The notes under the pieces were generated by a model, which saw nothing but the letters and a program-made list of their open reading frames with translations, was not told the DNA's origin and made no database searches. Shown here piece by piece: positions 26,729 to 28,487 of a DNA stretch of 64,000 nucleotides. The stretch comes from Bacteroidetes bacterium RIFCSPLOWO2_12_FULL_37_12 (GTDB lineage: Bacteria; Bacteroidota; Bacteroidia; 2-12-FULL-37-12), in the NCBI GenBank assembly GCA_001769655.1, contig MEPC01000024.1, positions 203,572 through 267,571 of the forward strand. Direction: 5' to 3'. Position 1 is the stretch's first letter. Each line of letters opens with the position of its first letter. The translations under genes were made by a program, and so were the position numbers.

Positions 26729-27142
26729 ATGAAAAATTCAATTACCAAACCCTCCAAAAACCCACGCAAGATATTAAAAAAAAGTGAAAATCCAACCCTT
26801 CTTGAAAAAGGAAGGCAGGGGGAATCGGTTGCCGCTGTTTATCTTCAGCGACATGGTTATACTATCAAAGAGCGAAATTACCGGATTTCAAAGTACGAAG
26901 TGGATATCCTTGCTGAGAAGGACAATACCTTGGTTTTTTGTGAGGTGAAAATGCGAAGTAATATTAAAAACGGCTCTCCTGAATACAATGTGGGAGCTGA
27001 TAAACTGCATAAATTAACCAGAGCCGCCATGCTTTACCTTAACTATTTTCCCTACGCCGGAGCAGTTCGTCTTGATGTGCTTGCGGTAAACCCTTATAAG
27101 GACGGGTTTGAGGTAAAGCATTATAAGGATGTGTTATATTAA
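26729..27142 (+). CDS. UPF0102 (YraN) family nuclease-like protein
   Basis: A 137-residue protein with a basic N-terminal extension and a PD-(D/E)XK-type core. GRQGESVAAVYLQRHGYTI and KERNYRISKYEVDILAEKDN followed by VFCEVKMRS supply the usual Glu, Asp and Glu-x-Lys residues. YraN proteins are thought to act on Holliday-junction or other branched DNA, but the role is unsettled. The last bases of its stop codon are the first bases of a 149-base palindromic element at 27139-27287, which may have replaced the natural C-terminal sequence. Confidence 0.85.
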   Translation: MKNSITKPSKNPRKILKKSENPTLLEKGRQGESVAAVYLQRHGYTIKERNYRISKYEVDILAEKDNTLVFCEVKMRSNIKNGSPEYNVGADKLHKLTRAAMLYLNYFPYAGAVRLDVLAVNPYKDGFEVKHYKDVLY

Positions 27143-27287
27143 GGGCACCTCTAAAAACTTGTCTTTTGTCCAGATACTGCGTTGTCAGAAATTTTTAAAT
27201 CCTCATTTACCCAATGTAAACTCCGGTTTAAAAATTTCTTCCGCCTTGTCTCTGGCCAAAATCCATAGTTTTTAGAAGTACCCTTAA
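27139..27287. repeat. 149-base imperfect palindrome (MITE-like)
   Basis: The ends TTAAGGG and CCCTTAA are exact inverted copies. The outer 19 bases of each arm agree at 17 positions (arms begin AAGGGCACCTCTAAAAACT and AAGGGTACTTCTAAAAACT), inner blocks such as AGAAATTTTTAAA pair again, and the centre is near TTTACCCAATGTAAAC. No protein is encoded. The shape fits a small non-autonomous element or a large RNA hairpin. It covers the yraN stop codon and sits before prfB. No second copy was seen in this window. Confidence 0.6.
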
Positions 27288-27409: not shown

Positions 27410-28487
27410 ATGACTTCCGACCAACTAAAAGATTTAAGAGCCCGCACTGAGGCACTGAGGAGGTTTCTTTGACGTAGATGTCAAAATAGCTGAAATCAAA
27501 AAAGAAGAAATGACTTCAGAAGCGCCGGATTTCTGGAATGACACTGCAAAAGCCAGCCAAATTCTCAAATCCATCAAATCAAAAAAAATCTGGGTACATG
27601 CTTATGAAGTTGTGAAAACCAACGTGGAGGATCTTTGTGTATTTTACGACTTTTTCAAAAGCGGTGAATTGGATGAGAAAGAAATGGATAAACATTTTAA
27701 TGACTCGCTGAAAGCCGTTGAGGAACTGGAACTAAAAAAGATGCTGGGTCGCCCCGACGATTCCATGGATGCGGTGCTCCATATCAATTGTGGCGCTGGT
27801 GGTACTGAAAGTCAGGATTGGGCAGAAATGCTCATGCGTATGTATGTAATGTGGGGGGAGAAAAATAATTTTACCGTTCGCACCTTAAACATTCAAACCG
27901 CCGAGGAAGCCGGCATTAAATCTGCCGATCTTGAAATCACCGGTGAATTTGCTTATGGCTACCTCAGAGGGGAAAGCGGGGTTCATCGCATGGTTCGCAT
28001 CTCTCCTTTCGATTCCAACAAACGCCGGCACACTACTTTCGCTTCTGTGTATGCATATCCTCTGGTGGATGACACTATTAAAATTGAAGTAAATCCTGCC
28101 GATATCACCTGGGATACATTCCGCGCCGGAGGACATGGAGGACAAAATGTAAACAAAGTGGAGACGGCAGTGCGTTTGAAACATGCACCTTCTGGAATTA
28201 TTATCGAGTGCCAGCAGGAGCGCTCTCAGGGGCGGAATAAAGATAAGGCATTACAGATGTTACGTTCGCAACTTTATGAAATGGAAATACGAAAGCGCGA
28301 CGAAGCCAAAGCCATTGAGGAAGGAAAAAAACTAAAAATAGAATGGGGCTCTCAAATCAGGAGTTATGTGTTTCATCCCTATAAAATGGTCAAAGATTTA
28401 CGTACCGATTTTCAAACCTCAGATGTTAATTCCGTGATGGATGGGGAAATAAATGGGTTTATCCGTTCGTTTTTGCTGGAGGGGTAG
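27410..28487 (+). CDS. prfB: peptide chain release factor 2, with programmed +1 frameshift
   Basis: RF2 ends translation at UGA and UAA. Its gene starts with ATG at 27410, reads 20 codons to CTT (27467-27469), meets an in-frame TGA at 27470-27472, and continues one base further (GAC at 27471) to the stop at 28487, giving 358 residues. The frameshift signal is complete: AGGAGG at 27458-27463 is three bases before CTT-TGA-C, the same geometry as in E. coli. The body has the UGA-reading SPF motif (VRISPFDSN) and the catalytic GGQ ([12 protein letters not shown]). A start at 27510 would remove the N-terminal domain. It is convergent with the next gene, only three bases apart. Confidence 0.96.

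Follow-up and report, generated by a model that had tools for sequence, protein, structure and literature searches.

The element at the end of yraN

The DNA analysed here (the window) is one stretch of 64,000 nucleotides. It carries yraN (UPF0102; 26729..27142, plus strand), whose 137-aa product is complete at the C-terminus and matches PF02021 with an E-value of 2.7e-23. The end of the gene overlaps a 149-base, nearly continuous imperfect palindrome (27139-27287), which is highly significant; its terminal inverted arms are 24 nt long and 88% complementary, and there is a further inverted repeat in the centre. Folded as RNA, the element gave -50.2 kcal/mol, vs -19.4 ± 3.1 for 200 shuffles (z -9.8, no shuffle as good); folded as single-stranded DNA it gave a z of -7.6 relative to shuffles. 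The sequence was as the original prediction had described it, a 149-base palindrome bounded by TTAA and including the yraN stop codon. The palindrome stands, but the TTAA is not part of the element: it frames both full copies in the genome (see below) while the outer flanks differ, which identifies it as duplicated target and leaves 141 bp (27143-27283) as the mobile part.

The left target copy (TTAA, 27139..27142) contains the yraN stop TAA (27140-27142) and the right copy lies at 27284..27287; TTAA is also found on both sides of the second copy. The terminal inverted repeats (TIRs), GGGYACYTCTAAAAA, occupy 27143..27157 (GGGCACCTCTAAAAA, plus strand) and 27269..27283 (read as GGGTACTTCTAAAAA on the minus strand), and the left one is common to 21 TIR-bounded elements of the genome. 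The core hairpin, CCTCATTTAC-CCAAT-GTAAACTCCGG (27201..27226, plus strand), has a tip stem TTTAC/GTAAA and an internal loop TCA/CTC. It is enclosed by the 5' arm (27188..27200, plus strand) and the 3' arm (27227..27239, plus strand) of a variable stem, which covary between elements (pair counts in alignment A2, below). Further out are a conserved left box, CTGCGTTG (27177..27184, plus strand), which recurs around position -24 relative to the core in many loci, across different phyla, and a conserved right box, CCGCCTTG (27241..27248, plus strand), which is GCCTT in most relatives; both boxes lie outside the pattern used to search for the core. The single ORF overlapping the element (67 aa, minus strand) had no Pfam match.

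The NCBIfam model NF009154 aligned residues 27-135 of YraN to model positions 12-122 of 123. yraN was present in 38 of the 40 genomes searched (own genome included), and the relatives' YraN, in a sample drawn entirely from outside the genome's own family, aligned to residue 131 or beyond of the 137 in 31 of 37 cases and to residue 134 or beyond in 28. An altered C-terminus, as had been suggested for the host gene, was rejected because the model match is near full length and the relatives align to the end region. When 30 yraN loci (own locus and those of 29 of the 37 relatives) were searched with a covariance model, R1 (built without ERIC sequences), the element was found in the own locus only; its position beside yraN is not conserved, which agrees with the mobility proposed for it. 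The stop codon lies inside the left target TTAA and is host sequence; yraN is complete by model and relatives, and among the yraN loci searched the element occurs in the own one only. The insertion therefore went into a TTAA at which the gene already stopped.

Two further features were noted nearby. At the 3' end of yraN lie two adjacent 27-bp copies (27074-27127) that are 78% alike; the duplication is possibly due to chance, since relatives align across it. Downstream, the ORF at 27410-28487, which we take to be prfB (peptide chain release factor 2), has an in-frame TGA (27470-27472) within CTTTGAC, after which the long frame continues in +1; this is presumably the classic programmed frameshift motif.

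Copies, ends and a candidate transposase

The genome assembly (3.94 Mb in 43 contigs, 97.9% complete) contains a second full copy at G000:C36:13151-13299, with 97% identity and its own TTAA/TTAA. Searched with R1, the genome returned these two full copies only, and the next match had an E-value of 0.17. The terminal repeat GGGNACNTCTAAAAA gave 70 genome matches with at most one mismatch, vs 21 for a reversed control pattern. Paired inward, the matches delimit 21 elements of 79-141 bp. At 40-200 bp no pair faces outward or in the same direction, and one long pair (2319 bp) was discounted because it spans two adjacent elements. The same-end elements have several unrelated interior types, of which one type only carries the core of the window element. 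Four-base duplications (TTAA, TAAG, TGAA, ATAA, TAAA) flank several members; some others have no duplication or one of three bases only. Taken on its own, the window copy is an ordinary MITE: it is short (141 bp) and lacks a transposase gene, it has 15-bp TIRs, TTAA is duplicated at both full copies, and it is dispersed as two full copies among 21 TIR-bounded elements. The prediction of a mobile, non-autonomous element was supported.

The other same-end MITEs are located on contigs C2, C6, C19, C21, C22, C24, C30, C33, C35, C36, C39 and C42 of the genome. Types of 79-80 bp and 87-91 bp contain CCTCTCC/CTCCCTC palindromes, and types of 131-140 bp have repeated CACATAG-like motifs. Single TIR-like sequences were seen in or at the start of open frames, where they read VFRST (L033 1501-1515, L052 191-205); these are possibly remnants absorbed into proteins. 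A tandem repeat of the CATCATCC type opens contig C33 (L052 1-105).

Among 57 viral-contig stretches with the element's end sequence, one holds a broken insertion sequence of the IS5 family whose ends equal those of the element. This 1151-bp element (L253; ends GGGAACCTCTAAAAA) has exact ends of the GGGAACCTCTAAAAACT type on both sides and encloses pieces of a broken IS5-family transposase (NF033581; E-values 8e-31, 3e-10 and 6e-15); its flanks carry no exact target duplication. The TIRs GAGACCTTTGCA and near variants of core-bearing loci (L091, L210, L306) match the IS5-family ends given in Table 2 of PMC4596501.

A helper with the element's ends was not found in the own genome (43-contig assembly); the definition of a MITE applied here does not call for one. 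The genome's only NF033581 matches were two remnants without such ends. Both were rejected as helpers, being open frames whose flanks lack the element's ends; judging by the protein, they are presumably IS1182-like. Unpaired TIR matches were also rejected as ends of an autonomous insertion sequence, as none of the 10 loci examined enclosed a recognisable transposase. The helper may have been lost from the genome or may be unassembled. From the ends, the duplications and L253, we infer that the element was moved in trans by an IS5-family DDE transposase recognising GGGNACYTCTAAAAA ends. Such an enzyme would recognise the 15-bp ends, excise the element and then insert it at TTAA-like targets.

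The conserved core and its pairing

Of 395 Bacteroidia genomes searched by blastn, 11 (the own genome among them) had matches, which fell mostly on the element's centre. The centre occurred in hairpins with ends of the same type (L059, L063, L065, L066, L073) and in hairpins with other ends (L062, L064, L067, L069). The exact pattern CCTCATTTAC-N2-9-GTAAACTCCGG was found in at least 117 stretches of genome_contigs, of which 80 (L076-L155, chosen by the exact pattern) were taken as the core locus set; viral contigs contained no exact match. By record name, Bacteroidota account for 47 of the 80 and Proteobacteria for 26, with 7 from other or unassigned taxa; 14 of the 80 belong to isolate-named records from both phyla (e.g. 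Pseudomonas, Halomonas, Rudaea, Deefgea, Anaerophaga). A phage or plasmid passenger was rejected, given no blastn match and no exact core in viral contigs.

The conserved interior has the layout CTGCGTT - variable stem - CCTCATTTAC nnnn GTAAACTCC - variable stem - GCCTT. Where the boxes were found, in most loci a TGCGTT-like box starts about 23-25 bases before the core and a GCCTT/GCCTC box lies 16-18 bases after it. From 79 of the 80 loci, those with full flanks, 57 non-redundant loci were kept; counted strictly, GCGTT[GA] was present in 21 of the 57 and GCCT[TC] in 35. Alignment A1 comprises 49 of the 57 and the window copy (L079, L092, L103, L110, L111, L135, L140 and L154 were excluded on visual inspection), and alignment A2 comprises 46 and the window copy, after L093, L117 and L144 had also been dropped for long insertions/deletions or poor fit. 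The exact core letters in A1 and A2 were imposed by the search pattern.

At an E-value of 0.001, R1 had matches in 19 of 295 Bacteroidia genomes, one of them the own genome, and in 63 of 185 genomes from the class to which G401 belongs (record titled Gammaproteobacteria); this class was sampled because G401 has the element. Ten genomes chosen for having the core contained from 7 to at least 151 copies. Head-to-tail series of cores in the same orientation were seen in G252:C133 (about 148 bp spacing) and G439:C125 (about 119 bp).

Pairing of the variable stem was measured in the 47 sequences of A2, in which 91.3% of cells are paired vs 75.2% after shuffling. The covariation score of the stem was 0.395, vs 0.105 ± 0.012 for shuffled alignments and at most 0.185 when the register was slid. 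The tip stem was assessed in 32 model-found matches (ERIC included), which loosen the constraint of the search pattern on the tip and came from 31 hand-picked source loci; all cells were paired and three of the five pairs change on both sides. Mismatches in the variable stem were equally rare for G-T (10) and A-C (12) among 376 cells (eight pairs), which suggests that pairing is kept at the DNA level.

In a crude scan, TIRs of at least 13/16 bases were found in 59 of the 80 core loci, most of them 104-145 bp long and with clearly different TIRs; the scan found no TIR in the other 21. Among the 59, 20 have no duplication, 17 a two-base duplication (weak evidence), 10 a four-base duplication and 12 duplications of other lengths. 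With naive ORFs of at least 100 aa taken as genes, 6 of the 80 loci fell inside an ORF, 13 at the edge of a stretch and 61 elsewhere. Of the 61 placed loci, 43 lie in tandem gaps, 13 in convergent gaps and 5 in divergent gaps, compared with 70, 21 and 42 of 133 other gaps (convergent vs divergent, p 0.006). The elements sit close behind gene ends, at a median of 30 bp from the neighbouring 3' end, and no orientation preference was seen between tandem genes (25 vs 18, p 0.36). Such placement agrees with elements that are tolerated behind genes and have no strand-specific role as RNA.

The same data bear on a reading in which the transcript of the core acts as an RNA hairpin that stabilises, processes or terminates mRNA and is for that reason tolerated at gene ends. 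Strong covariation, the short distance behind gene ends and the excess of convergent over divergent gaps would be expected of such a hairpin, and effects of ERIC on mRNA have been reported: in Yersinia, RNase E acts on ERIC transcripts and a role in mRNA has been proposed (PMC2229807, PMC10969869). Selection on RNA should, however, favour G-U, whereas the corresponding mismatch is as rare as A-C, and orientation between tandem genes is even. The element reached no Rfam family at its gathering threshold (the only match was MIR5998, 21.4 bits vs 180) and an Rfam RNA identity was rejected; a plain terminator was likewise rejected, as the window element has no terminator-like site. A role as RNA hairpin is considered unlikely, and the large hairpin RNA of the original prediction was not retained as the main reading.

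It could also be that the core has no function and belongs to a recent MITE lineage which was spread horizontally and looks conserved because it is young. We regard this as improbable too. Occurrence is patchy, as in the 19 of 295 Bacteroidia genomes, and binning errors in metagenome-assembled genomes could widen the apparent host range. Against this, stems and ends have largely diverged while the core and boxes stay, the tip stem shows compensatory changes, both phyla are represented among the isolate-named records, and the viral contigs lack the exact core.

Relationship to ERIC and other known systems

ERIC (also IRU or RU-1) is a 127-bp repeat of enterobacteria that is used for typing. ERIC repeats have been described since 1990-91 (PMC2229807), and a 2024 review places them in Enterobacteriaceae and Vibrionaceae (PMC10969869). 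The openly licensed PMC literature yielded no description of the core outside ERIC.

Covariance models were compared in both directions. R1 was run on 110 kb of DNA from Escherichia (with two 50-kb stretches of K-12), Rahnella and Pantoea. It gave seven matches up to an E-value of 10, and every one is an ERIC repeat (E-values from 6.8e-6 to 0.033; K-12 ybhI-ybhJ and narK-narG among them). A Bacteroidota-only model, R2, built from 26 Bacteroidota-named rows (L080, Acetofilamentum, counted in) and the window copy, returned the same seven ERIC first, with weak E-values of 0.003-0.28, followed by three matches at 0.64 that represent a single ybhI-region sequence present in three loci. Neither model matched the Rahnella ERIC L198. 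In the reverse direction, an ERIC-only model, R3, was built from six of the seven ERIC loci of alignment A5 (L195 was dropped, as its right half diverges) and run on 31 hand-picked core-bearing loci (175 kb); it gave 16 matches, all at cores, with E-values from 0.00018 to 8.7. On the window copy R3 gave no match up to an E-value of 10 with filters, and an E-value of 3.7, at second rank, without them. The arrangement of the ERIC core, CTGCGTT ... CACTTAC-n4-GTAAGCTCC ... GCCTT, recurs in the element, where the tip has T-A in place of C-G. The link is made by R1 and R2 and by R3 on the relatives; R3 run on just the window copy does not make it. The tip stem of the Rahnella ERIC L198 (398-475) shows a compensatory change: it reads CATAC/GTATG, and other ERIC copies have CTTAC/GTAAG.

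Considering the terminal repeats, the TTAA duplicated at two sites, the copies, the absence beside the yraN of relatives and the conserved interior, we think it likely that the window element is a MITE with IS5-type ends, inserted in TTAA at the end of yraN, whose core comes from a widespread family of hairpins that includes ERIC. That a core is kept while ends change suggests a benefit independent of any one transposase. Our likeliest guess, held with low confidence, is that the core is kept through recognition of folded DNA by a host factor; a widely conserved host factor would recognise the folded strand, as hairpin or cruciform, by its TTTAC/GTAAA tip and TCA/CTC internal loop. The broadest reading, which we put forward tentatively and consider somewhat doubtful, is that these elements are modular hairpin parasites that cross phyla, with a conserved core recognised by a widespread host protein, ends swapped repeatedly according to the IS5-like or other transposase of the host, and ERIC as the enterobacterial branch.

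A specialist would be surprised by the cross-phylum link to ERIC and by a core that is retained while the ends are exchanged. If ERIC is a branch of a hairpin family that extends over Bacteroidota and Proteobacteria, comparison could serve to test where ERIC came from and what it does: letters that stay constant as ends and stems vary would indicate what is recognised. Bacterial MITEs would then also be modular, with core and ends evolving separately.

Among other known systems, REP/REPIN elements are likewise intergenic, imperfect DNA hairpins in high copy; to our knowledge, they lack long TIRs of the type found in the window element. Their units measure 20-40 bp (PMC3733652). Movement of the window element in single-stranded form by a Y1 transposase (RAYT), as for REP/REPIN, is very unlikely: a hairpin with a mismatched internal loop and a conserved tip is shared, but exact long TIRs, 4-bp target duplications and IS5-type ends fit a DDE transposase. 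Closer in their ends are BrickBuilt and MITEPgRS, IS5-family MITEs of Porphyromonas gingivalis, which are also short, have IS5-type ends and are thought to be moved in trans. BrickBuilt consists of a leader, 23-nt repeats and a tail, and no such hairpin core appears in the description given in PMC4596501. Insertion sequences of the IS5 family share the GGGNACYTCTAAAAA ends, as in L253, and short target duplications, and differ in having a transposase gene, which the window element lacks.

ERIC is itself MITE-like and intergenic, and shares with the element, in the same order and orientation, CTGCGTT - stem - TCA-YTTAC-nnnn-GTAAR-CTC - stem - GCCTT. Its ends are TATACCC/GGGTATA, with TA at the termini (PMC2759123). 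Those of the window element are GGGYACYTCTAAAAA (GGGCACCTCT/AGAAGTACCC) with TTAA, and the remaining sequence does not align. Because the ends differ, the window element was not filed as ERIC and both were placed in one wider family; ERIC looks like one branch of a wider hairpin-MITE family whose core outlives changes of its ends.
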